Positions 6,744-64,000 of a stretch of DNA of 64,000 nt are shown here, piece after piece. The stretch's first letter is position 1, and every line of letters begins with the position of its first letter. The translations under genes and the position numbers were made by a program. This DNA comes from an uncultured Gammaproteobacteria bacterium (lineage in GTDB: Bacteria; Pseudomonadota; Gammaproteobacteria; Nitrosococcales; Methylophagaceae), in contig CAJIZI010000001.1 in NCBI GenBank assembly GCA_905181885.1, forward strand, positions 496,001-560,000, written 5' to 3'. Below the pieces are notes generated by a model that worked only from the letters and a program-made list of their open reading frames with translations, was not told the DNA's origin and searched no databases.

Positions 6744-8014
6744 GCACACTAGATAAACCATACATTTTAGTTGTAGACGACGAGCCAGCCATTCGTGAGT
6801 TGATCCAGGATATTCTTCAAGACGAGGGTTATCAAGTGACTACAGCTGCTGATGGCAATACTGCACGAGCCTGCCTCACCCTTCGCATGCCTCAGCTAGT
6901 GCTTCTAGATATCTGGATGCCCGATATCGATGGTATAAGCTTACTACGCGAATTTAAGCAGCAAGAACCTGGCCTCCCTATTGTAATGATGTCTGGGCAT
7001 GGCACCATAGAGTCAGCTGTTGAAGCAACTCGCCTAGGGGCTAGCGATTTTATAGAAAAACCTCTCTCTACCGCCAAATTGCTTCGCGGTGTCGAAACAG
7101 CCATTGCCAGCCAACTCAAGCTCGCTTCCTCAAAAAAACATTTAGCCCAAGAACCCGTAGGTAAAAGCCCAGAAGCGGCTTTATTACGGAAGCAAGCTCA
7201 GCGTGTTGCCAAATACAATATGCCTATCTTGCTTATAGGTGAGCCTGGTAGTGGAAAAAGATGTTATGCACGCTACCTCCACTCTTTAGGTGCTTTTTCA
7301 GAAGGTAAGTTTATTGAATTATCACCCGAAAGCTTCCCTGTTGACAGCCTAAGGTTCGCCGCACTTGCCGACCATAACTGTCTCTATTTAAACAACCTTT
7401 CTAAGCTAGACAGCAAGGCACAGGCCTTACTACTTCATATGCTAGAAAATGACAAAGTAAATCAGTCCCAACTTATTTTTGCAGGCCAAGAAACGTTAGA
7501 AGGCGCTGTCACTAATGGCACTTTTAGTGAAACACTTCTTTATAAACTTAACAGCATTACACTTTTCATTCCTAGGCTGTCAGACCATATTGAAGATACC
7601 CCTGAGCTTATTCATCATTTCGTCGACCAGCATACAACTGAGAACCAATTACCTTATCGCCATTTTAGTGTCGCAGCCCAAAACAGACTAAGAAACTATA
7701 CATGGCCCGGCAATATTCTAGAGTTAAAAAATATCATTCAGCGCTTACTTCTGCTTGGTGACAATGATGAAATTAATGAAGCCGATGTGGATCAAGCGCT
7801 AACGCCCTCTAAAGAAAGCCAAAAAAACAGCAATACCATTAACTACCAACTCCCACTAAGAGAAGCTCGCGAGCAATTTGAGCGTATTTACTTACTATAT
7901 AAATTGCAGCAAACTGCAGGTAATGTCGGTAAAGCGGCAAAGCTAGCAGGAATGGAGCGCACGCACTTATACCGTAAACTTCGCTCGTTAGATATCGACG
8001 CCAAACAGACTTAA
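6740..8014 (+). CDS. ntrX: NtrX-type response regulator with degenerate sigma54-ATPase domain
   Basis: Cognate regulator of the preceding kinase (4-base overlap). The receiver domain has the acidic pair DDE at 13-15, the phospho-Asp in LLDIWMP (Asp57) and the Lys of EKPLS. The central AAA+ domain keeps a P-loop (GEPGSGK, 167-173). The sigma54-contacting GAFTGA loop is not in its usual place: only GAFSEG occurs, immediately after the P-loop helix. The Walker B acidic pair is replaced by Asn-Asn (LYLNNL, 215-220). A Fis-type helix-turn-helix ends the protein ([21 protein letters not shown]). It probably binds DNA under phosphorylation control but is unlikely to drive sigma54 promoters. Confidence 0.88.
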
Positions 8015-8022
8015 GGACCAAT

Positions 8023-9396
8023 ATGAAAATTCTTATTCTCGGTGCAGGTCAAGTGGGCTCCTCTGTCGCAGCTAGCCTTGCCCGCGAAGATGATGATATC
8101 ACCGTTGTCGATCAAAGTAGTGAGCTGCTAGAGCGTTTGCAAGATCATTATGATATTCGTACAGTTCAAGGAAAGGCTTCGCACCCAGAAGTCCTCACTA
8201 AAGCCGGTGCGGAAGATGCCGATTTAGTTCTTGCTGTTACCAATAGCGATGAGACGAATATCATTGCCTGCCAGATATGCCACCAGCTTTACAATACGCC
8301 AACAAAAATCGCTCGTATTAGAAGTTCTTCTTACCTCTCTACGCCAGAACTCTTTGGCCCCAGGGCCATCGCCGTTGACATGCTAATAAGCCCAGAACAA
8401 ATTGTCACCGATTATATAGAACGCTTAGTTAATCATCCCAATGCACTACAGGTACTGAACTTTGCTGATGGAAGAGTCCAGCTAGTTGCTGTCAAAGCGG
8501 TTTATGGAGGCCCCCTAGTCGGTAGCCCTTTAAAAGAACTTCGGCGCCATATTCCCAAAATAGACACCCGTGTAGCAGCAATCTTTCGGGATGGCAGCCC
8601 CATCATTCCCCAAGCTGAAACGATCATAGAAGTAGATGATGAAGTTTTTTTTATTGCCGCCAGAGAAGATACTCTTTCTGTTATGGCTGAATTAAGACGG
8701 CTCGACAAGCCCTACAAACGGATTCTTCTTGCTGGTGGCGGTAATATCGGAGCTAGGCTTGCAAAAGCCTTGGAAAATGATTATCAGGTCAAACTGATTG
8801 AATCCAATCCCGAGCGAGCAGCTGCATTATCTGAAGAATTGACCAACACTATTGTTCTCCTCGGCGACGTCGCTAATGAAGATCTATTAATCGAAGAAGA
8901 TATCGACAAAATTGACCTGTTCTGTGCACTAACGAACGATGATGAAGCCAATATCCTTTCTTCTATGTTGGCAAAAAGACTGGGAGCAAGAAAAGTATTA
9001 TCGCTAATCAACCGTGCCGCCTATGTCGACCTTGTAGAGAGCGGAAGTATCGACATTGCCTTATCACCACAACAAGCAACTATCGGTAGCTTGCTCGCAC
9101 ATATTCGGCGTGGTGATATTGTCGCAGTTCATTCACTCCGTCGTGGAGCAGCAGAAGCACTGGAGGCCATTGCCCATGGCGACAAAAACTCCTCTCTCGT
9201 TGTCGGCAGAACTATTCGCGACATTAAGTTGCCTCCAGGCACTACGATTGGTGCCATTGTCCGAGGAAAGCATGTCCTAATCTCTCATCATGACACTGTT
9301 ATAGAGGCTGGTGACCATATCATTCTTTTCCTGATAAACAAACGTTACATCACTGAAGTGGAACGTCTTTTCTCCGTCGGTGTTACCTTCTTTTAA
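8023..9396 (+). CDS. trkA: Trk potassium uptake system NAD-binding protein TrkA
   Basis: Peripheral regulator of the TrkH/TrkG potassium channel. Two tandem RCK modules are visible. Each begins with a Rossmann NAD(H)-binding motif ([10 protein letters not shown] near residue 7; [11 protein letters not shown] near residue 239) and is followed by a TrkA-C domain. At 457 residues it has the usual length of the two-module form. An AAGGA ribosome site precedes the ATG. The location downstream of rsmB and the two-component genes follows the common rsmB-trkA neighbourhood. trkH is not in the window. Confidence 0.97.
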
Positions 9397-9421
9397 TGAT
9401 GAATAATCTGGTTTGGCACAC

Positions 9422-9841
9422 ATGAGTGAGCTTCGAACCTTTCTTGGCTTTGACTTTGGAATGAAAAATATCGGCGTAGCTGTCGGTCAAGAACTTACTA
9501 AAACTGCTAATCCTCTTACGGTAATAAAAGCTCGAGAAGGCATTCCAAATTGGGATCAAATAAAGACATTACTAGATCAGTGGAGTCCGCAACTACTTGT
9601 TGTTGGCTTACCTTTAAATATGGATGGCTCTGAGCAAGAAATGACAGCCGCAGCAAGACGGTTCGGTAACCGCCTAAATGGTCGCTTTCACATCCCTGTT
9701 GACTGGCAAGATGAACGCTTGACTACTTTCGAAGCGCTCGACCAACTTGGCATTCGCAGCAAAATGCAGTCTAATAAGCGAGAAGATGTTGACCGCATCT
9801 CAGCCCAACTCATTCTTCAATCATGGTTGAACCAGCAATGA
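9422..9841 (+). CDS. ruvX: Holliday junction resolvase-like RuvX (YqgF)
   Basis: Small RNase H-fold protein that acts as an endonuclease in 16S rRNA 5' maturation and/or junction resolution. The N-terminal strand LGFDFGMKNIGVAVG carries the first catalytic Asp. VVGLPLNMDGSEQ follows, and DWQDERLTT and REDVDRISAQ supply the remaining acidic residues. Start: the frame also opens at TTG 9413 (MAHMSEL), but ATG 9422 begins exactly at the family's usual N-terminus. The stop overlaps pyrR by ATGA (9838-9841), so it heads the pyr operon. Confidence 0.93.
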   Translation: MSELRTFLGFDFGMKNIGVAVGQELTKTANPLTVIKAREGIPNWDQIKTLLDQWSPQLLVVGLPLNMDGSEQEMTAAARRFGNRLNGRFHIPVDWQDERLTTFEALDQLGIRSKMQSNKREDVDRISAQLILQSWLNQQ

Positions 9842-23939: not shown

Positions 23940-24832
23940 TTCATGATCTCCTGCAAATGGAAATGGAAGGGGCCTAACTTACCACCATAATTGCCTGCAC
24001 TGATGCGCCTGATTCCATGTTTTGATCCCAATTTACATACGGCTTGAATGCCTACTTTCATTGCCTTATCAATATCTTCTTTAGCCAAACCATCAATGAC
24101 GATCTCCATCACCGACTCAACTTCTGCCGGTAAATCACTACTAGTCTGGCCTTTTAATGTCGGACAAAATGCATCATTGGTCGAGGCATTAAGCGCTTTA
24201 TATTTTGATCCAACTTTAGAGCCTGACCGAACTACTCCGCCAGGGAAGGGCATGATCACATTCGGGATTTTTTTCATCTCTTCAATGGCCGCTTCACAAG
24301 CGGCTAGTGCCTGGCCTTGTGACTCCGCAAGCACCAAGAAATTACCACCTCCGACCGCTGCCGTCACACCTGTTTTTTCCTGTGCTAAAAACTCACCGTC
24401 CATGACAGGAATACGCCAGTAGCGTTTACCGCCAATCATTTTAGAAATTTGGAAGCCGTCACCAAAGTAACGTAAATTTTGGCCCAAGGGCATGTTTTTT
24501 TCGCTCTCAAGACCTGAAAATAAAGCAGACGTTGGTGAGGTTAGAACACATTGCCCCGAACGCGTTTCAACTTGTTTGGCTAGACCTTTGCCACCCATCG
24601 CAAAAATCAATATTGAGACACCCGGGCGACCGTCTGGAGTTTCACTACCATCTAGCTGACGCTCAATCCCTGCTTCACAGCCACAGGCAATCACCGATGT
24701 AGCAAACCCCGTAAAAGCTTGAGCTGATATCATTGCCCATTTGGCATTATGTGCAGTAATAATAAGCCGTGTTGCTTTCATCGGAAAGGCTTCTGCGAAA
24801 GTCTCATCAATTGTGACACCATTAATAATCAT
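23936..24832 (-). CDS. fhcD: Formylmethanofuran--tetrahydromethanopterin formyltransferase
   Basis: Ftr-type formyltransferase, subunit D of the Fhc complex; transfers the formyl group between H4MPT and the methanofuran-like cofactor. 298 residues, typical length. Family segments include INGVTIDETFAEAFPMKATR at the N-terminus, CGCEAGIER near 50, PDGRPGVS near 65 and MPFPGGVVRSGSKVG near 195. Overlaps of about 4 bases with fhcA upstream and fhcC downstream indicate one coupled operon. Its presence shows a tetrahydromethanopterin-linked formaldehyde oxidation pathway. Confidence 0.96.
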   Translation of the reverse strand: MIINGVTIDETFAEAFPMKATRLIITAHNAKWAMISAQAFTGFATSVIACGCEAGIERQLDGSETPDGRPGVSILIFAMGGKGLAKQVETRSGQCVLTSPTSALFSGLESEKNMPLGQNLRYFGDGFQISKMIGGKRYWRIPVMDGEFLAQEKTGVTAAVGGGNFLVLAESQGQALAACEAAIEEMKKIPNVIMPFPGGVVRSGSKVGSKYKALNASTNDAFCPTLKGQTSSDLPAEVESVMEIVIDGLAKEDIDKAMKVGIQAVCKLGSKHGIRRISAGNYGGKLGPFHFHLQEIMK

Positions 24833-26497
24833 ACCGGCCCTCCCTTATGCAGGGGTTGTATGGTCAAGCTTCCTCGTCCATCATCGACAATTTCATCATC
24901 ACTAATCTTAAAGTTACCCATTTTCATCGTGAGGTACTTATCAAAGTATCCTTTTAATGATGTCTCGATACTTTTGTCATATTCAGGTTTAACGACATGG
25001 GTTGTCCCCCATGTCACATCAATTAGATCGCCGTCTTTAACCACCATCCGACCATCTTTAAATACATAGTCTGGCTTGCTAAACATTTTTTCGCGATCGG
25101 CATGGTCCGTATACACTGTAATATCTGCTGCACCACCAACACCCAAGTGACCACGATCAGCTAAGCCAACCAGTTTTGCCGCACCTGCACGCGTCATAAT
25201 GGCTATTTCGTATAAAGAATATTCCCTGTCAATCGAAGCCAATCGGCTCGCCTTTTGTGCTTCAGGGTGAAGTCGAGACAACACTTCATTTCTGAATGTT
25301 TTATCCATCAACAATCTAATCAAATGCGGGTAACTAGTAAAAGGGGCTCCATTTGGGTGATCAGTCGTTAAGAAAATTCTCCACGGATCTTCTACAAGGA
25401 GAAAGGTTTCTAAGCCAATCATCCACTGCAGCGCATTAACGAAGCTTTGATCTTTGTATTTAAACGGTAAAACTCCGCAGCCAGCATCACATTCAATATC
25501 CATTGTGACCCATTTATTGGGGTGGGCATGAGCATGTCCTGCGTGTTGATGCATGCTATCACCAGATGCTGTCACTGTTTGGCCAAAAAGTATTTGACCT
25601 ACATCAACAGTAATATTTTTGTGACGATTAATCGCTTCAGCAATCTCAGCAGCACCCGAGGAAAACTTGTAATCACCCTCCGTCCCGTAACTATGAAACT
25701 GAATATGAGTCATGTGCATTGGCAAACCCCCAATGCCATCCATCGTGTCGAGCGTTGTATCCATGTTCCCCGGTACGCCCAAATTACAACCATGAACATG
25801 AAGCGGATGAGGGATACCCAGTTCTTTTACAGCTCTTGCTAAGCGCAATAAAATTTCACGTGGCGTCACACCATAAAAACTATTCTTTTCATCAAGGTCC
25901 AGTTTACGCTGATTAAACTTAAAGGCATTTATCCCGCCCGGATTTACCACCTTAACTCCAATCGCTTGGCTATGCGTTATAGTCCATGCAACATAATTAT
26001 TGATCGACTCCTGATCATTGTTGGCCGCCATCATTCGTAGCAAATAGTCATCACTGCCGAGCATGACGTAGCCACCCTTATCAATAATTGGCGTGTCATG
26101 CATTTCCATATGCGCTTGACGAGCATTACTTGGTAATATCGCAGGCTCAAAGCCGGCCGTATAGCCCATTTCTGCATATCTGATAGCCCGCGGTTAAGGT
26201 GCTTGGAGCCGCATGACCACAACCTGAGCGCATAAGCTCTGTCCGTGCCACCACATCTGCTGCGTGATCTTCCGGCAGCATCGTTCGAGCAATATTAACT
26301 TTACCCCCACCGATATGAGTATGCATATCAATAGCTCCAGCCATTACTACCTTGCCCCGCAAGTCCACTTCTTGCAAAACCTTTCCATCTGTAGGGGGGT
26401 CTACTATCCAACCATCATCCACATAGATATCACGAACTATGCCATTGATGCCATGGGCAGGATCGTAAACTCGGCCGCCAGTTAATTTCATTAACAT
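24829..26497 (-). pseudogene. fhcA: Formyltransferase/hydrolase complex subunit A, one frameshift
   Basis: The amidohydrolase-type catalytic subunit (FwdA homologue) that hydrolyses the formyl carrier to formate. The first 115 codons include DMHTHIGGGKVN with the metal-binding H-x-H. The second, 446-codon part carries the rest: HVHGCNLGVPGN, HIQFHSYGTEG, a TTDHPNGAPFTSYP segment and GVGGAADITVY. The parts join in register if one base (the C of TATCAGA on the minus strand, near 26187) is removed, giving AGYRYAEMGYTAGFEPA. A single indel in a core methylotrophy gene with intact flanks argues for a sequence error. Confidence 0.9.
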
Positions 26498-26512
26498 TTC
26501 TTCATGAACCCC

Positions 26513-42276: not shown

Positions 42277-43647
42277 CTATTTACTCATTGCTACGATATT
42301 GTTTTTTGCTTGTTCTACTTTAGCTGTTTTGCCGTATAGAGAGTAAGCACCAAAACGCATTTGATGAGCACGTCCTAGCTTCTCAGCTTGGAAGTCAATA
42401 GCGAACTGTTCAGTCATTTCTGTACCATCCCAATGGTATAGCTTGATGAACTGGTCGTTGTCACCGGCTTTCTTGTCCCAGTTACCTAGTAAAGAAGTGG
42501 TGTAGTACAAACGTTTACCATCCCAGCTAGAAGAAACCATGTTTACTTGATTACCGATCTGTTTTTCATAGACCTGTTTAGGGTTATGAGGATCAGTGAT
42601 GTCAAATCCACGTGTTTTACCATCTAGGAAAGTGTTAACCCAAAGCATAGTATCAGAACTGTTGATAGAAATATCAACTGGTAATGGGATATCTGCAGGG
42701 TTACCTACATCAGCAACATTAGTTGCTTTCCAGACATCATTTTCTTCGTTCAAAAGTACGAGTTGTGATGTAAGTGCTGTTGTTGTGAAACAGTAGTTAT
42801 TCTCTGGTTTCCATGCACAACGGATTTCAAGTGGTGCACCTGGTACGTCTAAAACTTGTTTAGGCTTACGAGTGTGAAGATCCCAAATAACCATTGTGTT
42901 ACCGAAACGTTTCATTGCTTCTGCATCACCAAGCATTGCACCGAAGTCCATCATGTAGTTAGACCAGCCAGTGAATGAAGATGTCAACATTACGTTTTTA
43001 GCAGGTAATGCACGGATGTCATAACCGTAACCATCAGCGAATTGACCGCCTTTATGAGCACCTTGAAGGTTATCATCAGTAGGCATCCAGTAAGTATCAA
43101 TGTACTCACCGCCGTTAGTGTACTCAACTAATGCAGTACGACCACCGTGGTCTTGGTTGTTAGAAAGACCTGTAACAATCATACGACCCGGAAGAGCGTA
43201 AGTTGTGTGAGGGCCAACAACACCACCTGTTTTGCTAACAAAATCGTCAATAGTTTTGACTAGTTTTGGTGCAGCTGGATCTGTGTGAACGTCAAAGATA
43301 AAGATTTTGTTTGAATCTAGACCACCGGCCCATAAGAATTTACGATCATCCGTGAAACCAGAGTGATGAGCTTCGTTACGTCCGCCAACTGATTCAGAGT
43401 TGATGACTTTACCGTAGTGTTCAGATTTTGGGTTTACATCTACTGTTACCATTTTATCTTGTCCGTCACCTAGGCCTTCAACACCTAAAGTCCAAACGTA
43501 GACAAAATCTTCTTGACCGACGATTTTAACCATGTACGGTGACATACAGGTTTCGTCAGCCATAACAGGGTTTGTAGCTAGCACAGAGGCCGCCACAAAT
43601 GGCGCTAAAACTGCTAGCGGTTTGCTGATAAATTTCTTGATATTCAT
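42277..43647 (-). CDS. mtoX: Methanethiol oxidase, selenium-binding protein 56 (SBP56) family
   Basis: SBP56-family beta-propeller protein with a periplasmic signal peptide (ending PVMADETC). Bacterial members characterised as methanethiol oxidase convert methanethiol and oxygen to formaldehyde, sulfide and hydrogen peroxide. Family segments: CMSPYMVK at the mature N-terminus, GGRNEAHHSGFTDDR, VGPHTTYALPGRM, GYGYDIRALPAKNVMLTSSF and GRAHQMRFG at the end. The frame opens at 43674, but ATG 43647 has an AGGAG ribosome site at good spacing. The MauG-like neighbour supports the MtoX reading over a generic SBP56 role. Confidence 0.88.
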   Translation of the reverse strand: MNIKKFISKPLAVLAPFVAASVLATNPVMADETCMSPYMVKIVGQEDFVYVWTLGVEGLGDGQDKMVTVDVNPKSEHYGKVINSESVGGRNEAHHSGFTDDRKFLWAGGLDSNKIFIFDVHTDPAAPKLVKTIDDFVSKTGGVVGPHTTYALPGRMIVTGLSNNQDHGGRTALVEYTNGGEYIDTYWMPTDDNLQGAHKGGQFADGYGYDIRALPAKNVMLTSSFTGWSNYMMDFGAMLGDAEAMKRFGNTMVIWDLHTRKPKQVLDVPGAPLEIRCAWKPENNYCFTTTALTSQLVLLNEENDVWKATNVADVGNPADIPLPVDISINSSDTMLWVNTFLDGKTRGFDITDPHNPKQVYEKQIGNQVNMVSSSWDGKRLYYTTSLLGNWDKKAGDNDQFIKLYHWDGTEMTEQFAIDFQAEKLGRAHQMRFGAYSLYGKTAKVEQAKNNIVAMSK

Positions 43648-44132
43648 AACATCTCCTAAATTTACGATTCGCATCTAAGTAGGGGGAACCTTGGATACAC
43701 TGTTTGGTAGAGATCACAATAAAAACAAAGCTAGCTTTGCGTCCATTAAGACATTCGATTTAAACAATTTGTTCCGAGCCTACGAATGATACGCCTTCAA
43801 ACAGGCATCATAGTTTTACATACCTATAATTAATAGATACCTATGTGGATGATACATCAATGATATTTAAATAGAGCCTAGTATTAATACTAGGTTTGAT
43901 GCTTGGCGTCTCTTTTTTTCTTGTGCTGTGAAATAAGTGAGAATGAGACTTCACAAGCTTGTTTCATCAGTTTTTATGGTAGCATTAATTGGTGGGCATT
44001 AGAAGATGGGGCCGTCTATTCTGGCTATCTGGTAGTCATCAAGATTCTTATCGCTATGAAGGCTAATTTAAGTCTTAATAAGTTTAAATAGATCGATGCT
44101 CTATTTAAAAGGACTAAAAGTTTAGTATTGAG
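43648..44132. promoter_or_regulatory. Leader region of mtoX with an 18-base perfect palindrome
   Basis: 485 bases with no credible gene. A perfect 18-base palindrome, cctagtattaatactagg, lies at 43877-43894, about 230 bases before the mtoX ATG, and tandem atacctat-like words occur near 43820-43845. The palindrome is a plausible operator. A short plus-strand open frame (43903-44091) has no coding character. Confidence 0.45.
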
Positions 44133-52384: not shown

Positions 52385-52853
52385 TATCCACCTGTATGGG
52401 TTTCTATAAAATAATGGTTCAACATATACTCTACTTCATTCACATTAGTTTGTGAGTACGTATATATCTCTATCCCTTTGTTCAATTGCGCTGCTGCATT
52501 AAACAAGACACTACTATCAACTACTTGGTTCATCGTATGCTTCATATCATCCACAATATTTTGTGAATAGGCATATTTGAGCTTTTAACTGTGCAGTTGA
52601 TCTCGCTCTCTAACCGGACATTATTAACAACTATTATCCTGATATCAAATAAGATTTTTATATTATGCCGTGATATTCAGTTATGAGTCGCCTTAAAAAA
52701 GAGCTAAACGATGGCAATTCATAGTATTTTTATCCGTAATGTAGTTTATCTTGATTTAGTAATTTAGTGTTCTAAATCAGAGTAGATGTTCAATATAAGC
52801 AAGGTGTTGCGCTTCAGTCTGCGTATCTTTGCATTGTGATCCTCAGAACTTAA
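52385..52853. promoter_or_regulatory. Promoter region of the sox string with two matching inverted repeats
   Basis: 469 bases with no gene. Two dyads share the form (T/C)CACA-N6-TGTGA: TCACA-TTAGTT-TGTGA at 52440-52455 and CCACA-ATATTT-TGTGA at 52551-52566. They are about 55 and 165 bases upstream of the soxC ATG. A shared spacing and half-site suggest one dimeric regulator controlling sox. No regulator gene is adjacent. Confidence 0.5.
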
Positions 52854-54044
52854 CTATTTTTCAACAACCCAGAAGACGCCTTCTTTATTGTCTCTCTCAT
52901 TTTCAAGTTCTTGTTCTATGAGCGATGAGTAATGACTAATTTTGATACCTGGTTTGTGCTCAGAAGCTGCAATTGATGAATAATACTTTACTGTGCCTAA
53001 AGAGTTTAGTTTCGATTCTATCTGCTCAGCACTGAGGTTTTTTGAGGCGATGTGTTTATCCTGGTGAACTATCAATAACCCGCCTGGAGCTAGTAATCTC
53101 CATGTGGTCTCGATCGTGTCAGCAGCAGCCCCATTTATTAAGGTGATGACTTGCGGCTGAGCCCCAGAAGAGACCAATTCATTTTGGTTTGAATTTGTTA
53201 TTAGTTTGTTCTTTATCATGTGGCTGTTAAATGCTGTCACTTCATTGGCTTGTAGAAGCGCTGATGTTGTGGATGAGGTTTGAGCAAGTGCACTTTCAAT
53301 ATTTATGTATGAGCTTAGTAGTAATTCAATCGCTAATAGGCCATTATTTTCATCATCTCCAAGGGTTGCCAAGTTGACTTCTTTTTTTCTGCCAAATTGA
53401 TCCTGAATAATTCTTTCAACAATCGCGCTATTGGTAACATTAGTCCAGTGGGCCTGGTGTAAGTTCAAAAAATGTTCTTTTACTGAAGAGTCACTATCTT
53501 TATTGACAAGTATTTGTCGCGTGATGGCATGGGAGCCCTGTCTTAGAAGGTAATTGGCAGTGCTATTTATTTCAGGAGGTTGTTTTCGGCCTATTCTCAT
53601 CGACATTACGCCATCATTCTCAGCCCATATATTACTCATGCCTTTCCAGCGACTTCTACTAATGAATATATCTTCCAGGATGCTTCTTGCCCAATAGTTT
53701 TTTTCTGATGCCTGCATTTCAGGGTACACGGGTAAAACGACATAGCCTTCGGGTTTAACTAGTGTCATGAGGTGCCTAAGAAATGCAGCACCCCAGTTAT
53801 TAGCAAAAAGTGGAAAGCTGATGCCTATATAGATCCTATCAATTGATCCTGGCGTAAAAGGGAAAAAAAGATTACCGATCTCTTCATTTTTAAATTCAAT
53901 GTTTAGCTGTTTCGAGTCAGGCGTGAGACTGAATATATCCTGACCAGGTTTAACTTGGCTATGTATATCTCTTTCACCAGAAAAGTAATATTCTAGATCT
54001 TCTGTTATATATTTTTCAGATTTATGGAATACCAAGTCAGTCAT
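52854..54044 (-). CDS. Unrecognised protein with methyltransferase-like segments
   Basis: 396 residues, no signal peptide. I do not recognise the family. Two stretches look like strand-turn motifs of Rossmann-type methyltransferases (HLMTLVKPEGYVVLPV near residue 90 and TTWRLLAPGGLLIVHQD near 318), with helical, Asn/Ser-rich sequence between. The Gly-rich SAM-binding motif I is not evident in either half, so catalytic activity is doubtful. It lies between the sox promoter and the FadL gene on the same strand and may belong with the monooxygenase module. Confidence 0.6.
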   Translation of the reverse strand: MTDLVFHKSEKYITEDLEYYFSGERDIHSQVKPGQDIFSLTPDSKQLNIEFKNEEIGNLFFPFTPGSIDRIYIGISFPLFANNWGAAFLRHLMTLVKPEGYVVLPVYPEMQASEKNYWARSILEDIFISRSRWKGMSNIWAENDGVMSMRIGRKQPPEINSTANYLLRQGSHAITRQILVNKDSDSSVKEHFLNLHQAHWTNVTNSAIVERIIQDQFGRKKEVNLATLGDDENNGLLAIELLLSSYINIESALAQTSSTTSALLQANEVTAFNSHMIKNKLITNSNQNELVSSGAQPQVITLINGAAADTIETTWRLLAPGGLLIVHQDKHIASKNLSAEQIESKLNSLGTVKYYSSIAASEHKPGIKISHYSSLIEQELENERDNKEGVFWVVEK

Positions 54045-54272: not shown

Positions 54273-55594
54273 TTATTCAAAGTGCCATGTTAGTGCGAAA
54301 CCAGCATGCCATGAATCAACTTTAGCATTTGTGTGATTAGGGAACGAGAAGTTGCTTACCGTAATCTCTATCTTCAGAGAATTGACGAGCAACATGCGTA
54401 TCTAAATCCAAGAATGGTGCTAAGAAGCCTTTGTAACCGAAACCAGCTGTGAAGCGGTGACGGTAGATAACTTCTGCTTGTGCAGCCATTAGGTATTCAG
54501 TTACCGCTATACCAGCAGCACTGTTACCAGATGGGATTGCAGTACATCGATCTGGTAGACCAGAACAAACGTTAGCTAATTGGCTTAGGCCTTTAGTTTT
54601 TTCACGTGTTGGGTCATCAGCATAACCATAACCTGCACGCCATTCCCAAGGTCCATCAGTTAACTGAGCACCCATAGAGAAGATCCATTGATCTTTATAT
54701 ATATCTTTCCAGAAGTTAGCATTGCCCCAGTTTTTGTACATGATGTCTGCAGCTAGTAACAAGTTACCATCCATCATCATCTCATTACTGATACCTATAC
54801 CTAACGTACGAGGTTGTTCGATATTAAGGCTTTGGAAAGAACCATCCGTCGTTCAGCAATATGTTAATGCGCTCTGACCTGACTAGGTGATGTTTGGATT
54901 ATATCATCGAAATCTTGACGCAATTCTGAATGATAAAACATACCAATTTGTGTGTGATGTGGCAGTTTATAGGTCATACCTAATGAACCTTTAACTGCGA
55001 TATCATGTGTTTGTGCTGCTACTGAAGCAATACCAAGATCTAACATTGAGTAAGTTACTGTCGCTGCAGAACCAATTGTTAAGTTCTCAGACAAGTCCCA
55101 ACTTAAACCTAAGTTAGCACCAATTACGATTAACTCTGCACTTGCACCAATTGAATTTGGGTTTTCACGAAATTCAGCACCGATACCGTTAGTTGCAGTA
55201 ACACCTGCACCTAATGTTCCTGGAATACCAAGTCCACGTAGATCTTGAGTAACACCAATTTCAGGGACTAAGTAACCTTCGTTACCATTACCTTCTTTAA
55301 ATGCTGTACCTAGCCGAAGCTCTTTGTAATTGTACTTGTTAGTTCTACGTTTGGCTTGTACCAAGTTGCACCGAATGTGAATTCTGTACCACGAAACTCA
55401 GATAGACCCGCTGGGTTACCAAAGATTGCAGATACGTTATCTAGTGGTTTAGCAATACTTGTTCCAGCCATCGATGCTGATACAGGCGCTAATACGTTGT
55501 GAAGGTCATACCCGTATGGGCCTGCCATCACACTTGTAGACGTCATTGCTGTTAGCAATGCTGTCGACAAAGCTAAGCGATTAAATTTTTTCAT
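54273..55594 (-). pseudogene. FadL/TodX-type outer membrane channel, several frameshifts
   Basis: FadL-family channels bring hydrophobic substrates across the outer membrane. The N-terminal fragment has a signal peptide and the hallmark IFGNPAGL. A middle fragment (LGTAFKEGNGNEGYLVPEIG.. to LPHHTQIGMFYHSEL) and a C-terminal fragment (ADIMYKNWGNANFWKDIY) are in other frames. I also recover the true end, a beta-strand closing ALTWHFE. Joining them needs shifts near 55312, 54870, 54848 and 54356. Restored length (about 440 codons) is normal. It sits downstream of the AlkB-like module and fits a hydrocarbon uptake role. Confidence 0.82.
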
Positions 55595-56150: not shown

Positions 56151-57221
56151 TTACTGTGGCGTATTACTCTTATCTAGGAATTTATCATAGAATATCGAAT
56201 CTTTGGTAATACCATTTTTCTTGAATACACTAATAGATGCGTCAATCATGCCGGGTGGACCACAAAGATAAGCTTGGCCCCTGAGTGCCTTTCTAGAATC
56301 TTTGATAAAATCTACACAAGAACCTCTATTTCCTTCCCATGAGCTATCTTCTGGCTCTTCTGATAGGCAAGGAATATATTCGAACCTTCCAAGACCTTTA
56401 CTAACCCAGTCTGCTGATAATTTATCAATCAGCTCTCCAAGATATAGATCTTTTTGTGTACGAGCGCCAAAGAGGAAGCGAACATCAGCCATTCTGCCTG
56501 ATTCAAGTGCATCTTGTAGAACACCTACAATAGCACTCATGCCACTACCACCTGCGACACAGGTCATTTGGGCAGGCTTTTTAGCCAAACCAAATACACC
56601 ATAGGGGCCGCTCATTGTCATAGTTTCTCCGGTACGATCACCCTCAAACAACCAGTCGGTAAATTCACCACCAGGGACTTTTCTGATGTAGAACAAGAAT
56701 TCTTTTTGACCAAGACTTGGTGCTGTTGCAAATGAGTAACTACGCCCTTCATCAAGATGGGGTAGTTTCAGATCTGCATACTGACCAGCTTTGTACAAAA
56801 GCTCTGTCGATGAGACCACAGAGTCATCAATTTCAATGACAAGCTCTTTGATATCATGTGTTAAGTCACGGATCTGCTTAATAACCGCTTCTGATTCCCA
56901 ATGAAGTTGTCCTTCACCAGCAAGAAGTTCAACTTCAACTTCTATATCAGTCTTGAGTGCCGTTTGACACGCTAGAATGTAGTTATTTTGTAGGTCCTCG
57001 GCTTCTAAGGTATATGCAAAATCAGCTAAAGGATTTATTTTACCTTCAACTAAGCGACATTTGCATGAACCACAGCTGCCTACTCGACAATCATGTGGCC
57101 AAGGTATTCCGGCTTCGAGCGCTGTCTGTAAAAGGTTGTCACCAGCCTTTACAATTAACGTTTCGGTGCCATTTATCTTGGCTGTAGTTTCTTGTTTCTT
57201 ACTTTTGAAAAAACCAAACAT
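56151..57221 (-). CDS. XylA-like NAD(P)H:ferredoxin-type oxygenase reductase
   Basis: Three-domain electron transfer protein, 356 residues. A plant-type 2Fe-2S domain has Cys45, Cys50, Cys53 and Cys85 (DCRVGSCGSCKC, ILACQ). An FAD domain has the EGRSYSFATAP motif near residue 170. An NAD-binding domain has CVAGGSGMSAIVGVL and the final YLCGPPGMID. This matches reductases of xylene/alkane-type membrane monooxygenases (XylA) and similar oxygenases. It lies 34 bases after the GST gene on the same strand as the hydroxylase and probably feeds it electrons. Confidence 0.9.
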   Translation of the reverse strand: MFGFFKSKKQETTAKINGTETLIVKAGDNLLQTALEAGIPWPHDCRVGSCGSCKCRLVEGKINPLADFAYTLEAEDLQNNYILACQTALKTDIEVEVELLAGEGQLHWESEAVIKQIRDLTHDIKELVIEIDDSVVSSTELLYKAGQYADLKLPHLDEGRSYSFATAPSLGQKEFLFYIRKVPGGEFTDWLFEGDRTGETMTMSGPYGVFGLAKKPAQMTCVAGGSGMSAIVGVLQDALESGRMADVRFLFGARTQKDLYLGELIDKLSADWVSKGLGRFEYIPCLSEEPEDSSWEGNRGSCVDFIKDSRKALRGQAYLCGPPGMIDASISVFKKNGITKDSIFYDKFLDKSNTPQ

Positions 57222-57255: not shown

Positions 57256-57936
57256 TTATACGTTAATACTTACTGAACGTAATGTATTACTACGAATTTC
57301 ATCTAATGAAGGAAGAACTGTGTATGCAACATAGTTTTCTTTGCTCATACTCTTTCTTACTTTCATGTGTCCCCACCAAGCTTTAACGCCAGGTAAAGAG
57401 TCAACTAGCGATTCGTTATTGTAGAGGCATAATGCATGAACACTTGGTGCCCAATGGATATCAGCAAGGCTGAATTCACCAACAACATAATCACCACGTT
57501 TTGTTTTAGCATTTAGCTGCGCTTCAAGTGCTGCTAAGCCTGCTTTAACGGTTTCCATTGCACTGTCGTCACCGCCAGTTAATGATGCTACTGCTGGAGC
57601 AAACGAAGCACTTGCGATATGCGCCCATTGGTAGTTGATTGCACGAGCTACACCATTACGGGGCACTAATGAGTTACCAAAGCCTTTGTCATCTAAGTAC
57701 GACATGATTGCTTCGGTACCGTATATATAGAAGTCAACATCTTTTAGAACGGGAACTGAACCGAACGGAGAATGCTTTTTGATCTCGTTCATTTCAACTT
57801 CTGAGTTGACATCAACAGAACGGCCGTCTATGTCGACGCCTTTTTCTGCTGCTGTTAGAAGGATTTTGCTTGTGTTAGGACAACCAGCAACACCCCATAA
57901 TACTTTTACATCTGATAAATGATCTCCAATAGCCAT
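57256..57936 (-). CDS. Glutathione S-transferase family protein
   Basis: 226 residues. A thioredoxin-like N-terminal domain (residues 12-85: VKVLWGVAGCPNTSKILLTAAEKG, cis-Pro in GSVPVLKD, TEAIMSYLDD) and an all-helical C-terminal domain with GEFSLADIHWAPSVH. GSTs in oxygenase clusters, for example those for isoprene or alkenes, conjugate reactive epoxide or aldehyde products. This one is between the ferredoxin and the reductase, so detoxifying the hydroxylase product is a reasonable inference. A repeated dyad element precedes its start by 36 bases. Confidence 0.9.
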   Translation of the reverse strand: MAIGDHLSDVKVLWGVAGCPNTSKILLTAAEKGVDIDGRSVDVNSEVEMNEIKKHSPFGSVPVLKDVDFYIYGTEAIMSYLDDKGFGNSLVPRNGVARAINYQWAHIASASFAPAVASLTGGDDSAMETVKAGLAALEAQLNAKTKRGDYVVGEFSLADIHWAPSVHALCLYNNESLVDSLPGVKAWWGHMKVRKSMSKENYVAYTVLPSLDEIRSNTLRSVSINV

Positions 57937-58386: not shown

Positions 58387-59553
58387 TTATGCATAGTTCT
58401 CTGGTACTACGTAGCCAGCTTGTTCATTGATTCTGTTCGCAATCTCTAACTCGCCTTCTGTAGCGAAATCTCTGTCCCATGTTGCTAATTTTTTCTTCAT
58501 CATCATATGGTATAGAGGTGGAATTAACGCTACAGTAAACTCTGTAAAGTAACCCCAACGAGCGTTTGGTGAACCTACTTCATCTAATTCCCAGAAGTGA
58601 GTTTCGCCACGGTCATGGTGATCACCTTGACGACCGATTTCAATGAAGAACCAACTTGTGAACAAGTTGCTGTTATCCCATGAATGACGGTAATCAATTG
58701 GTTGACCTTTTTCACGAATAAGACCGTAATGCTCCATGTAGTTCAACGCTTCTAACTCAAAGTTAGAAATAGTCAATACTAAGAACATTGCAGCTATACC
58801 CATAACACCACCAGCATAAGTAAATAATACTAATGTTGGTAAGCTCATGAAGTAACCACGGATCCAACGGTTTTCAGTTGAAAGGAATGATTTGCCTAAT
58901 TTAGCTAGACGAGTCTGTTCCATTCTGAACAAGAATTTTGATTGACCCATGTGTGACAACCAGAAATGTCTGTAGATAGAACGACCGCGTGGCGAAGTAG
59001 CAGGATCATCTTCATGTGCTAGTTCTAGATGGTGGTTGTATACGTGAGCATACGCAAAGTGTGAAGAACCACTTAAACCCATCATCAAACGAGAAATAAC
59101 AAAGCTGAAGCCTTTAGTATGAGATAACTCGTGTCCGTAGATAATACCGATACCAGCGAAGATACCTGTAGAAGCTGCAGCAACTGCTAACTCAAGACCT
59201 GTAATACCATTTGTCATCGGTATCATGCCGTATAACATAGTAGTTGTGATAGCAGTACCATCTACATACTGCATTACACGCCATGCTAGAGCAATTTGTA
59301 ACAAAGCAAATACAGGTAACATAACGTACATTACTGTGTTTTGTAATGTTGGCATGCCCATTGTATCGCCGTTGTCATCAAAGCCAGCACCTGGTGGGTG
59401 GAAAGGCATAGTGATTGTATCAAGAATGATACCGACACCAAATAGTGCGATACCTACCCAGACGAACATTCCGCCCAGTATAATACTTGCTAGCGTTACT
59501 AAGATTAGTACGGGTGCTAGCCAGTATCTGATGTTAATTAAAAGCTTTTTCAT
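58387..59553 (-). CDS. AlkB/XylM-family membrane diiron monooxygenase
   Basis: An integral membrane hydroxylase of 388 residues from ATG 59553 (the frame opens 18 codons earlier; AGGGG lies about 11 bases before this ATG). Several membrane segments (about 11-50, 72-92, 108-140, 236-266). His boxes: HELSH (141-145), His170-x3-HH174-175 followed by HEDDPATS, and EHYGL (274-278). The third box reads RQGDHH (308-313): AlkB has a His where Gln309 stands. It should hydroxylate a small hydrophobic or methylated substrate. The reductase, ferredoxin, GST and FadL channel nearby complete the module. Confidence 0.88.
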   Translation of the reverse strand: MKKLLINIRYWLAPVLILVTLASIILGGMFVWVGIALFGVGIILDTITMPFHPPGAGFDDNGDTMGMPTLQNTVMYVMLPVFALLQIALAWRVMQYVDGTAITTTMLYGMIPMTNGITGLELAVAAASTGIFAGIGIIYGHELSHTKGFSFVISRLMMGLSGSSHFAYAHVYNHHLELAHEDDPATSPRGRSIYRHFWLSHMGQSKFLFRMEQTRLAKLGKSFLSTENRWIRGYFMSLPTLVLFTYAGGVMGIAAMFLVLTISNFELEALNYMEHYGLIREKGQPIDYRHSWDNSNLFTSWFFIEIGRQGDHHDRGETHFWELDEVGSPNARWGYFTEFTVALIPPLYHMMMKKKLATWDRDFATEGELEIANRINEQAGYVVPENYA

Positions 59554-60078
59554 GGTATAAATACCCCTTAAAAATAAAGCATTGTTATAATTATTATTAT
59601 AAATCAATAAGATAAGCCAAATGACTCATCATAATGTTAGCCGAAATTTTCCGAACTAGGCTGTTACTCTAAGTGATCGCCGGTCACCTTAAAATACGTA
59701 TAAATCCCTAGCTAGGATTTATTGTTTAGTTACAGCAACTTATGCTCTATATATTCTATTTTTTGTGCATATATTTTAATAGAATCATCTGTACACTAAG
59801 ACTTACGCACTTATTTACAACATTTAAGATGACAGATGAGCTTACATGTATTGATTTGTATCCTCTTTAATTTCTAAGGTTTCTAACTTTATACCTTATA
59901 TATACATTTGCCAGTCAATAGTTGTTTAAGTTCTGCTGATCCCGCTAGGCTGTAGGTTCTTATACAACATTGTTCTTTTGTATAACTACGTATTCTCCTC
60001 TAGTTAATAATCAAATAGGATAGTATCTAATTATTAATGTGTCATTCATTCTGCACTATAATCTGGGTATATTAAAAT
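59554..60078. promoter_or_regulatory. Divergent control region between AlkB-like gene and norD-like gene
   Basis: 525 bases without a gene. A 7-7-7 inverted repeat TAAATCC-N7-GGATTTA lies at 59701-59721, about 150 bases upstream of the hydroxylase ATG. TACGTAT words occur at about 59696 and 59985. The region is AT-rich and must carry promoters for both directions. No -24/-12 sigma54 sequence was seen. Confidence 0.45.
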
Positions 60079-62184
60079 ATGGGACTTTTTTCAGACATAC
60101 TGAAAAAGCTAGATGCTGGCAATGTAAAAAGGTTTAGTAAGGGTGGTGCTCGTACGGGCGGGGCTCTCGAGCTAAGGCAAACTGCCTCTACTGGGGGTAT
60201 GGCTACTACCGAACTTCTAATCCGTCTTGAGCTTATTATGGGCCAAGCTTCTGGCTTACCACTAATGGATTATGCTAATGAAATGGTCCATTTAAGCCAT
60301 CCATTACAATTATTTATATTTTCAGAAACGTCAGAAATATCAAACCTGTCTTATGAGCATGCCCATGAGTTTCTTAGTGTCGCATCTACTGCTTTAGTTC
60401 TCATGGAGCAGAAACAATATGAACGTTGGCTTTCTGGAGTAAAACAGGCATTCGCATCTGGTGACCCTGAATCTGCATCATATCAAATCAAAAATTACCT
60501 TGATTATACTAGTGAAAGAGACACGCGAACTGCTTATCTAAGTGATATAACCTATACTCTAGAGAAGCTAGTTTTGAGTATACATAAAACTGAACTACCT
60601 ATTGTCGCGGCTGAATTAGTAACTGAAAATAAACTGATGAGCTATACAGATGATGAGGCTTTATACCTCCCACTCAGCATTTCTCACTTTGATAATTATG
60701 AAGACAATAATCGTCTCTACAAGGTTCTTACGTTTCAATTGTTGGGACAGATTCATTGTAAAACTGCTCTAGCTTTAGATACACTTAGTGATGGTATTAG
60801 AGAATATGGCGATGACTTTTTAACTATATTTTCCACTATAGAAACATTAAGAATCGACCAGTACATAAAGGCTGAATTCCCAGGCTTGTGGAATGATATA
60901 GTTTTATTACATAAAAAAGCTAAAGTCGTTTATCCTCTCAATATTTTTGATAATGCAGATATTCACACGGTTGAGACGAGTCTTCAGCTCACAAAGTCAC
61001 TGCTCGAGTCTAAGCTTGATTTACCTGAGCTGATATACCAGTCAACTTTCCAGCTAGCCCTAATGGCTCATGTCCAAAATGTAACAATCAAACAAGAAAG
61101 CAAGCGTAAAGCACCATTAATACTAAACCCAACAACGGATGTGCATGACGAGCTGCTTGGAACAGGAGATCCAAAAACTGCAGATAGAGGATATTTAAGA
61201 GCCCTCAAAGACAACGCCGGAGATAGCGTCTTAAATAGTCCTCCTCCAGGCTGGATCCCAGGTTCATCAGATGAAGCTGAAGTCGCTCAACACATAACAA
61301 AGCACAATGAGAAAGGTGTTTTTTACTACAGAGAGTGGGACACCTCACTTAAGAGCTATCGTAAAGATTGGTGCCGATTAAAAGAAACGGTGGATGAGGA
61401 TTTAGTTGAAGATGTTGTAATTGAAGATCCGGAAGCACTTCGACATGCCGAAAATCGTATTAGAAAAACTTTTGATCAGCTAATCAATGACCAAAAATTT
61501 ATGCGTGGCCAAAATGATGGTGATGAGATTGATATTGATGCCTGGGTTTCTGCTAGATCAGGCAAAAGTAAAGATGCTGATGATTATCAGAACTTATATA
61601 TAAGGAATAATACAAATAACCGTGATGTTGCCATTATGTTTGCTGTTGATCTTAGTGGCTCAACATCTGGATGGAAAAACACCATGATAAAACAGTCAAC
61701 TTGGTTGCTATGTAAAACGTTGGCACGTATGGGCGATCAGTATGCTGTATATGGTTTTTCAGGAGCTGGTCGAAACGATTGTCGGGTATATCCTGTAAAG
61801 AGATTTGAGGAAAACTACACTAAATCAGTTAAGTCGAGGATCTTTTCGATGAAACCTGATCAATATACACGAATGGGTGTTGCTATAAGGCACTTAAGCA
61901 AGCTGCTAGGTAAAACATCAGCAAAAACCCGAATTTTATTCGTTTTAACCGATGGCCGTCCAGACGATGTGGACAGTTATAGGGGGCAATATGGCGTAGA
62001 AGATACGCGGTTGGCTTTAAACGAGGCAAAGGCACTATCTCTTAAACCGTTTGTATTAACTTTTGATAAAGAAGGTATGGATTACTTACCATACATGTTG
62101 GGGTCAAATCGTTATCAATTAATAACGGATATCTCTCAACTACCAATACAAATTTCTACCATTTATAAACAACTGACGACATAA
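60079..62184 (+). CDS. norD: von Willebrand A-domain protein, NorD/CbbO type
   Basis: 701 residues. A long helical N-terminal region (1-500) precedes a C-terminal vWA domain with the metal-dependent adhesion site DLSGSTSG (Asp about 523), a conserved Thr and LTDGRPDD. NorD and CbbO pair with MoxR-type ATPases to activate nitric oxide reductase or Rubisco. The NorQ/CbbQ partner follows after 2 bases. No norCB, cbbLS or cbbM gene is near, so the name reflects family only; it may activate the divergent diiron hydroxylase. Confidence 0.85.
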
Positions 62185-62186
62185 AT

Positions 62187-63002
62187 ATGACTACTGCAAA
62201 TATTATCGAAAACTCAAAATATTACATTAAAGATGAACCTTACTACTTGCCTACGGCAAATGAGGTGGAAATTTTTAATACCGCTCTAGAAGAAAACATA
62301 CCTGTTCTACTCAAGGGTCCAACAGGCTGTGGTAAAACACGCTTTATGGAATATATGAGTTGGTACACTAAGCGGCCTCTAATTACGGTGTCGTGCCATG
62401 ACGATCTGACAACTGCAGATCTGGTTGGACGCTATTTAATTCAGAATGATACAACTGTCTGGCAAGATGGACCCTTAACCACAGCGGTAAGAAATGGCTG
62501 TATCTGTTACTTAGATGAAATTGTAGAGGCACGAAAAGATACAACCGTCGTGATCCATCCTTTGTGTGATGATCGCCGGATTTTGCCCATAGAAAAATTA
62601 GGTCAGTTATTGCAAGCACCTCCTGAATTTTGCCTAGCAATGTCTTATAACCCCGGATATCAAAGCGCTGTTAAAGATCTGAAGCCTAGTACTCGCCAAC
62701 GATTTATTTCAATCGACTTTAGCTATCCTGCTGCAGACGTTGAAGCAAAAATTGTTAATCAGGAAGCGGGCCTAGATATGGCTGTGTGTGAGCGGTTAGT
62801 AAAACTAGCAGAAATGACAAGAAACTTAGTGGGTAACGGGCTTGATGAAGGTGCGAGTACGCGTTTACTTGTCCACGCAGCGAAATTAATCAACCGTGGT
62901 TTTGAACCTAAAATGGCATGCCGATGCGGTATTGCTGATGTATTGACCGATGATAATGAAACAGTTACGTTGTTGCATGAAATGATAGAAACGCTTTTTT
63001 AG
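62187..63002 (+). CDS. norQ: MoxR-family AAA+ ATPase, NorQ/CbbQ type
   Basis: 271 residues. Walker A GPTGCGKT (44-51), Walker B ICYLDEI (near 111-116), sensor 1 region MSYNPGYQS, and an arginine-finger segment [11 protein letters not shown]. The C-terminal CbbQ domain has [18 protein letters not shown]. Such ATPases remodel a target protein through their vWA partner. It is coupled to the preceding gene and faces the convergent FixJ-type regulator. Confidence 0.92.
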
Positions 63003-63035: not shown

Positions 63036-63650
63036 TTAAAGCTTAATGTTTTCATAATCAGCTGCGATCGCAATTTTTATTACGTCTGATAGTGATTTAG
63101 CTTCTAATTTATCCATAACATGAACACGGTGAAGTTCTACTGTTCGGATACTAATATTCATGTTGTAAGCTATTTGTTTATTTCTTAATCCGTCAATAAG
63201 ACCTTGTAAAACCTCAAGCTCCCGTGGTGTTAGTGTGGAGACAATCTCTTTAGCGCTAATAGTGAAGGCATCACGTTGTCTTTGACTCCGTTGTTCTTGT
63301 AGGCAGTGTTTAACACGCTCTATTAGTTTACTTGACTCAAAAGGTTTTTCGAAAAAGTCTGAGGCTCCCATTTTAAGGGCTTTGACGGCTGTACCTACAT
63401 CACCGTGCCCGGTGATACAAATAATCGGCATTGTTAAGCCGCGAAGGTTTAATTCTTCAATCACATCAAGGCCTGACATGCCAGGCATCCAAAGATCGAG
63501 AATAATCAACCCTTCAGGCAAGTCATTAACCTCTTCTAAAAAAGCAGCTGGTGTAGCATACGGAGTAGCATTAAAGTCTTCTGCTTTAAGAAGCATACTG
63601 AGAGAGCCTCTAACAGCTTCATCATCATCAACGATGTAAACATTATCCAT
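63036..63650 (-). CDS. FixJ-family (TodT/StyR-like) response regulator
   Basis: 204 residues. The receiver domain has DDDEAVRG and the phospho-Asp in IILDLWMPGMSG (about residue 54), ITGHGDVG and EKPFE. A LuxR-type helix-turn-helix follows (LTPRELEVLQGLIDGLRNKQIAYNMNISIRTVELHR). It is downstream of a histidine kinase (11-base gap) and adjacent to the monooxygenase module, so control of that module is plausible. FixJ-like regulators control aromatic oxygenase operons elsewhere. Confidence 0.93.
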   Translation of the reverse strand: MDNVYIVDDDEAVRGSLSMLLKAEDFNATPYATPAAFLEEVNDLPEGLIILDLWMPGMSGLDVIEELNLRGLTMPIICITGHGDVGTAVKALKMGASDFFEKPFESSKLIERVKHCLQEQRSQRQRDAFTISAKEIVSTLTPRELEVLQGLIDGLRNKQIAYNMNISIRTVELHRVHVMDKLEAKSLSDVIKIAIAADYENIKL

Positions 63651-63661
63651 TTTTTTGTAGC

Positions 63662-64000
63662 CTAGTTGTTGGCCCTAAGTGGGAGGGTGAATTTAAATGT
63701 GGTGCCGGCTTCGCTTTCATTAGCCTGCACGTCTAATTCACCGCCATGTGAATCAATAATGGAACGAATAATCGCTAAGCCCATTCCCATTCCTTCGGGT
63801 TTTGTTGTGTAGAAAGGTTCAAAAATTTTACCGGCCTCATAGTCTGAGATGCCAGGTCCACTGTCTCTTACTGAGACGAATATCCCTGAATCGTGACATA
63901 TATTAGTCTTCAGAGTCAAACGGCGAGCATTTTTATCCAAAACTTGCATTGCTTCTATTGCATTTTTGACTAGGTTAACAATGACCTGCTCTATCAGCAC
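63662..64000 (-). CDS. Sensor histidine kinase, C-terminal part (5' end beyond window)
   Basis: The visible 112 residues are the HATPase_c domain: N box NLVKNAIEAM, G1 VRDSGPGISD, F box FEPFYTTK and G2 GMGMGLAIIRSIIDSHGG. The sensor domains and phospho-accepting His lie beyond position 64000. It is the presumed partner of the FixJ-type regulator. Confidence 0.9.
   Translation of the reverse strand: MLIEQVIVNLVKNAIEAMQVLDKNARRLTLKTNICHDSGIFVSVRDSGPGISDYEAGKIFEPFYTTKPEGMGMGLAIIRSIIDSHGGELDVQANESEAGTTFKFTLPLRANN

Follow-up and report, generated by a model that had tools for sequence, protein, structure and literature searches.

A NorQ/NorD-like gene pair kept beside an AlkB-like membrane hydroxylase in Methylophagaceae

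Introduction

Pairs of a MoxR-type ATPase and a von Willebrand factor A (VWA) protein are described in PMC9976466 as a large family that has received little study and for which few clients are known. In the NorQ/NorD system of the cytochrome c-dependent nitric oxide reductase (cNOR), the account given in PMC13036017 places the finger of the NorD VWA domain in the pore of NorQ and the C-terminus of NorD on the postS1 loop. Twisting of the NorD linker is described there as required for iron insertion into cNOR, and cysteines in the P-loop region of NorQ are said to form a regulatory disulphide. A related pair is analysed here, encoded next to an AlkB-like membrane hydroxylase in a 64-kb stretch of DNA (the window) from a Methylophagaceae genome (G000; 1.50 Mb, 99.73% complete).

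The hydroxylase belongs with enzymes whose metal site has been described. In FtAlkB, iron is reported to be held by nine histidines and Glu271, the second iron (Fe2) being bound by His171, His272, His311, His315 and Glu271 (PMC10113152). The nine histidines are termed invariant and indispensable in GPo1 AlkB (PMC10110569). In the open-licence literature of PubMed Central, nothing was found that links NorQ/NorD or MoxR/VWA proteins to an alkane hydroxylase or monooxygenase, MadB included.

Results

An initial annotation of the window had read a NorD-type VWA protein and a NorQ-type ATPase divergent from an AlkB-like hydroxylase, and the open reading frames (ORFs), their domains and their solved relatives agree with it. 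The hydroxylase gene on the reverse strand is followed by divergent NorD-like and NorQ-like genes on the forward strand, at 60079–63002. The Q-type hydroxylase (58387..59553, −; 388 residues from MKKLL) matches PF00487 at 4.9e-25 and AlkB (PDB 8sbb) at 1.1e-26, with RQGDHH as its third histidine box. Its ORF as listed runs from 58387 to 59607 with a TTG start; the conserved MKKLLINIRY puts the start at 59553. The NorD-like VWA protein (60079..62184, +; 701 residues) matches PF00092 at 7.2e-07 and NorD (PDB 9qhd) at 9.6e-43. The residues of its metal-ion-dependent adhesion site (MIDAS), D524, S526, S528, T597 and D625, are invariant in 12 of 12 aligned sequences. The gene of the NorQ-like AAA+ ATPase (62187..63002, +; 271 residues) starts two bases past the end of norD, and its product matches AAA_5 at 1.3e-33, CbbQ_C at 5.7e-28 and CbbQ (PDB 5c3c) at 3.4e-100. 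The pair thus displays the features of MoxR/VWA systems: ATPase motifs (both Walker A and Walker B, the latter YLDE), an H2 insert, a MIDAS and adjacent genes. Structure predictions had a mean predicted local distance difference test score of 35.9 for the hydroxylase (4 alignment rows) and 38.3 for the NorD-like protein (8 rows).

The linkage is conserved in relatives, a point on which the initial annotation had let its proposal depend. Among 57 genomes of the family, the pair was found in 11, the hydroxylase in 12 and the methanethiol oxidase MtoX, which is also encoded in the window (42277..43674, −; NF052453 at 751 bits, cut-off 650), in 12; all three occur together in 11 genomes, and 44 have none. 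Fisher's test of pair against hydroxylase gives p = 6.5e-11, uncorrected for kinship. The hydroxylase stands alone in G018 (81% complete) and MtoX alone in G005 (82% complete); G029 was scored hydroxylase-positive from short contig-end fragments alone. Wherever the pair occurs in the family (11 of 11 genomes), the start of a hydroxylase gene lies next to it in divergent orientation, and this adjacency holds down to 45–47% NorD identity. The adjacent gene is complete in G000, G017, G030, G012, G055 and G052, encodes 374 residues in G028, and is cut by a contig end after 123, 112, 62 and 22 residues in G022, G027, G015 and G029, respectively. Contigs probably break there because several near-copies of the hydroxylase exist (97.7% identity in G000). 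Within the genus of G055 and G052, represented by 24 genomes, these two are the only ones with the pair, the hydroxylase and MtoX, and in G055 norQ ends 4.4 kb before mtoX.

A separate search returned seven loci, all of which except one lie on the same contigs as the family genomes and are not independent of them. The exception is Cocleimonas (Thiotrichaceae according to NCBI), where the pair and a hydroxylase (67% identity) share a 38-kb contig at a distance of 13 kb. Globin, glutathione S-transferase (GST) and reductase genes adjoin this hydroxylase. The same contig carries MtoX, formate dehydrogenase, S-formylglutathione hydrolase and glutathione-dependent formaldehyde dehydrogenase. Genes for DUF1326 and PpoB2 (a copper chaperone according to Pfam) come after norQ (L136, 5082–7582).

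The initial annotation had noted no norCB or Rubisco genes in reach of the pair and had let its proposal depend on this too; their absence proved true of the genome as a whole. No RuBisCO_large match was obtained in the entire 1.50 Mb, the same search being positive in five of 14 control genomes. The single COX1-family gene lies among ORFs that, read by eye, are CoxB-, CtaG- and CoxC-like, and on account of this set it is assigned to an aa3 oxidase and not to NorB. The usual clients are therefore missing from the genome, not just from the window, and Rubisco activation and cNOR maturation are ruled out as present roles in G000, which has one NorQ-like gene.

Relatives in the family keep the different pairs apart. 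Some NorD-like match was found in 40 of the 57 genomes. Three kinds can be told: proteins of about 700 residues that resemble the window protein over their full length (11 genomes), NorD of about 610 residues, and CbbO of about 750–790 residues. The latter two match the window protein over the C-terminal ~285 residues only, and a few weaker matches fit no kind. In the stretches read, the NorD kinds adjoin a COX1-family NorB (Pfam-tested in L138, L142 and L143) and the CbbO kinds adjoin Rubisco (Pfam-tested in L139, L144 and L145). One genome, G012, keeps three pairs, each by its own target: norC-norB with NorQ and NorD, Rubisco with CbbQ and CbbO, and the hydroxylase with the window-type pair. 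In phylogenetic trees of both proteins, all 12 window-type rows fall into a single clade with 100/100 support, apart from NorQD and CbbQO and nested in a large group of NorQ/NorD-like pairs without a recognised client. NorQ/NorD-like genes near which neither norCB nor Rubisco nor a hydroxylase was recognised are widespread in Gammaproteobacteria (L115–L134).

The pair shares with NorQ and NorD of cNOR (PDB 9qhd, 9qh4) the domain build, the MIDAS, the Walker motifs, the H2-insert motif GRXLL/IXXXXT and both P-loop-region cysteines, with sequence similarity that spans the finger and VWA regions. It differs in its separate clade, in the lack of NorB in G000, and in a NorD-like protein that is about 90 residues longer than NorD of the family. 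The postS1 loop has AV in the window NorQ-like protein (VV in G012), whereas I159 and L160 are given for Paracoccus NorQ in PMC13036017. The likeness to CbbQ and CbbO (PDB 5c3c, 6l1q) lies in the match of the NorQ-like protein to CbbQ and in the VWA partner; in contrast, G000 is without a Rubisco match, and the CbbO types adjoin Rubisco and form their own clade. Among MoxR/VWA systems the pair is a variant of its own, with a client that is probably new.

The hydroxylase itself departs from AlkB at its predicted metal site. It keeps the homology over the catalytic half, the conserved Glu271, and eight of the nine ligand histidines, with the Glu before the fourth-box histidine, shared with AlkB and XylM (PDB 8sbb, 8f6t; pWW0 XylM; ligands as given in PMC10113152). 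The ninth is missing: in a gapless part of the alignment to 8sbb, RQGDHH stands for the RHSDHH of AlkB, which replaces His311 (His321 in 8sbb numbering) by Gln. RQ[GA]DHH is present in all of the complete family copies that were aligned, including paralogues of 57–59% identity. Close relatives occur in 13 of 369 genomes sampled from the class, with Gln in 12; the other one, G315, has N-terminal fragments only, in which the third box is not visible. His is found in the four next matches (about 30% identity), in XylM, and in the Hydrocarboniclastica and Polaromonas homologues. Judged from these alignments, the hydroxylase is a branch of AlkB with a predicted change of an Fe2 ligand, which had escaped the initial annotation. 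XylM is 28.9% identical to it, and a 2Fe-2S reductase is encoded nearby in the window as in xylMA; there is no norQD in the pWW0 xylMA stretch (3 kb on each side).

Outside the family, NorQ was scored as present at E 1e-40 and NorD-like proteins at E 1e-80. The window-type pair was seen only in the family and Cocleimonas; window-like NorD matched over its full length in the family, more loosely in G245 and G105, and by its C-terminal part in the rest. NorQ was found in seven of ten extra-family genomes with a close relative of this hydroxylase, at 63–67% identity in five and at 53–57% in G307 and G182, versus none of four with the canonical kind. A hydroxylase of this kind is present in four of the five best extra-family NorD scorers as against one of the 52 others. 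The NorD relatives of G245, G105, G240, G100 and G347, all hydroxylase-bearing genomes, form a clade (97/93), which may or may not join the window clade (approximately unbiased p-value, p-AU, 0.46 for NorD; support 73/89 for NorQ); L207 and five NorQ rows of the tree were chosen because their genomes carry the hydroxylase. In G245 and G105, one hydroxylase copy has a NorQ gene at a distance of 6.6 and 13.7 kb, respectively, separated from it by unrelated genes; NorD is encoded at another site.

The intergenic region shared by alkB and norD, 300–525 bp long across the family genomes, contains a conserved motif, TACGTATAWAYCC (59695..59707, +), which is exact in 11 of 11 of these regions. Among the 206 loci examined, 43 have it exactly, and all 43 are copies of this intergenic region by origin. 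With two mismatches allowed, the window holds four copies against 3.5 expected, which is unremarkable in the window alone; the weight of the motif is its conservation across genomes. A copy with one mismatch lies upstream of soxC (52457–52469), which possibly belongs to the same regulon.

Discussion

The initial annotation had proposed that the pair may insert or reactivate the diiron site of the hydroxylase. A role dedicated to this hydroxylase is the best reading; insertion or reactivation is the less secure part of the proposal. Canonical AlkB is iron-loaded without such a pair. The His-to-Gln ligand change, the association with MtoX and the coexistence of NorQD, CbbQO and window-type pairs in relatives extend what had been noted before. 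It is considered somewhat probable that the pair acts in some way on the adjacent hydroxylase as a dedicated MoxR/VWA chaperone. That it does so by inserting iron is a fair possibility, held with less than even confidence. Physical contact, action on the metal site and a need for the pair are what we infer.

By analogy with NorQD, a hexamer of the NorQ-like protein would turn the VWA domain of the NorD-like protein, the other end of which would hold the membrane hydroxylase. Twisting driven by ATP could then open the cytoplasmic metal site to let iron in or to reset a site that has gone dead. Since the window pair keeps the interface elements that PMC13036017 names for NorQD, namely the H2-insert motif, the P-loop-region cysteines and the MIDAS, it could plausibly work by the same motor. 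Variation in the NorD-like protein is greatest in the middle linker, as would be expected if this part met the client. The altered diiron site, with Gln for His311, may be the reason why this lineage keeps its own helper.

Several observations weigh against this role. Purified FtAlkB is reported to carry two irons without such a pair (PMC10110569) and FtAlkBG to have been produced in E. coli (PMC10113152). AlkB can thus in general do without one; a general need of AlkB-type enzymes is ruled out by these papers together with the pWW0 stretch and the hydroxylase genomes without NorQ. These genomes, G203 and G411 with a Q-type hydroxylase and G315 with hydroxylase fragments, have no NorQ at E 1e-40 and speak against a strict need for the pair. 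The NorQs of G182 and G307, where placed, fall with NorQ or CbbQ types, and in G307 the hydroxylase is accompanied by globin, reductase, kinase and regulator, but such a pair is absent from the 18 kb. In Cocleimonas, other genes separate the pair from the hydroxylase. MtoX co-occurs with the pair as well as the hydroxylase does, and within one family shared descent alone can account for linkage.

The pair might instead act on the hydroxylase as a repair or disassembly motor. CbbQO, described in PMC9976466 as freeing inhibited Rubisco, is a precedent, and CbbQ 5c3c is the best match of the NorQ-like protein among solved chains; an oxygen-activating site would also be prone to damage. NorQD, the sole homologue with a membrane target, is however reported to insert iron (PMC13036017), and a repair motor is judged unlikely.

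The linkage could also be the hitch-hiking of one lineage, the pair having branched off from a NorQ/NorD-like pair that is widespread and unlinked in Gammaproteobacteria and would have a general client. NorD-like relatives occur in 60 of the 369 class genomes, with NorQ at 61–67% identity, and no hydroxylase was found among five ORFs on either side in the 20 neighbourhoods read; relatives in three families are unlinked or loosely linked to the hydroxylase. Such an origin sits poorly with the long separate branch of the window clade, with its reversed gene order (D then Q, as opposed to Q upstream in nine of ten NorQ-bearing neighbourhoods), and with the enrichment of the hydroxylase among the best extra-family NorD scorers and the single clade, described above, of the five NorD relatives from hydroxylase-bearing genomes. 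Hitch-hiking is rather improbable.

It is improbable, too, that the client is a different metalloprotein tied to the same lifestyle, with the hydroxylase adjacent for co-regulation of a pathway; candidates would be MtoX, the truncated globin encoded next to the hydroxylase, or a component of Sox or of an oxidase. MtoX accompanies the pair in all 11 genomes and occurs in just one other, and its proximity to norQ in G055 and the copper-chaperone genes by norQ in Cocleimonas would fit, but in the stretches read MtoX is adjacent in G055 only, compared with 11 of 11 for the hydroxylase. MtoX is moreover described as periplasmic with its own SCO1/MauG maturation genes (PMC6548844), whereas the most likely location given for NorQ and NorD is the cytosol (PMC9976466).

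If the pair does serve the hydroxylase, a third dedicated client beside those of NorQD and CbbQO in the same genomes would be a natural comparison of how the motor chooses its target, and the purpose of the nine-histidine site could be probed with an enzyme of the AlkB type in which one ligand is Gln.

As the pair, the hydroxylase and MtoX travel together, the hydroxylase may be an enzyme of marine sulfur-gas breakdown with an assembly system dedicated to it. Tentatively, it could be the first dimethylsulfide (DMS) enzyme of Methylophaga-type marine bacteria, a monooxygenase with Gln in its diiron site that converts DMS to methanethiol for MtoX and to formaldehyde for the C1 pathway, and that has a NorQD-type machine of its own for assembly. 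The first DMS enzyme is stated to be missing from the known set in M. thiooxydans (PMC6548844), and its gene to be still awaiting identification (PMC9563715). G055 has two MtoX ORFs (467 and 465 residues), both with a SCO1/MauG-type fusion behind them; one of its mto clusters ends in adenylylsulfate kinase and methylated-DNA-cysteine methyltransferase. For M. thiooxydans, PMC6548844 gives MtoX of 427 residues plus a 40-residue alternative start, and of 465 residues, with fusions and the same two end genes; as the clusters agree gene by gene, G055 is M. thiooxydans or a very close species. Among six species, the same paper finds mtoX in two only, M. thiooxydans and M. sulfidovorans. It also reports that DMS up-regulates a FadL-like porin, a flavin reductase and a gene described as a fatty acid desaturase (MDMS009_226). 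These recall genes of the locus, and MDMS009_226 may correspond to the hydroxylase.

Against a DMS role stand the authors' reading of MDMS009_226 induction as membrane repair, their report of no DMS monooxygenase activity detected in the M. thiooxydans strain, and the growth of M. aminisulfidivorans on DMS without mtoX, as cited there (PMC6548844). A second hydroxylase copy in G000 (97.7%), with a reductase copy (95.8%) and without norDQ (L052, G000:C1:623000-640000, 7116–9473), likewise lies in another setting, with genes for a MerR-type regulator, photolyase, CMAS, DUF1365, an epimerase and amine-oxidase-type proteins. This setting, and the MerR-type ORF divergent from the hydroxylase in G105, G240, G100 and G347 (Pfam-checked in one), would suit a role in lipids under light or oxidative stress, which the hydroxylase may have. 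It may also serve plain hydrocarbon degradation, as the FadL-like porin, GST and XylM-like reductase of the locus would allow. A search of the open-licence PubMed Central literature found nothing that links XylM or xylene monooxygenase to methanethiol in a marine setting.

Other genes of the window

Behind alkB, and kept there in relatives, is a GST-like gene (57256..57936, −; GST_N_2 at 6.7e-10). It is followed by a ferredoxin-NAD reductase with 2Fe-2S, FAD and NAD domains (56151..57221, −; Fer2, FAD_binding_6, NAD_binding_1), a second copy of which adjoins the second alkB; it is likely the electron donor of the hydroxylase. A FadL/TodX-like outer-membrane protein (54337..55364, −; Toluene_X at 6.9e-06, under its cut-off) is split across two frames, which may reflect an assembly error or decay, its homologues in relatives being intact with 415–427 residues. 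A conserved protein of 396 residues without a Pfam match (52854..54044, −) is kept near alkB, with homologues in L013, L045, L046 and L047. On the other side, a FixJ-like response regulator (63036..63650, −; Response_reg at 1.2e-26, GerE at 2.8e-20) is convergent with norQ and is followed by a PAS histidine kinase (63662..64000, −; PAS_4, HATPase_c) that is cut by the window end and has 659 residues in the genome.

Farther off, the window holds soxC and soxB, besides mtoX, and formylmethanofuran dehydrogenase/formyltransferase genes of tetrahydromethanopterin C1 oxidation. The ORF of formylmethanofuran dehydrogenase subunit A (24829–26512) matches its model from position 110 only; the N-terminal part may lie upstream in another frame, which hints at frame errors in the assembly. 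A gene for an acyl-CoA-dehydrogenase-like flavoprotein adjoins the kinase and regulator genes of the locus in three settings (L006, 2594–3757; L136, 14941–16152; L187, 5222–6436).

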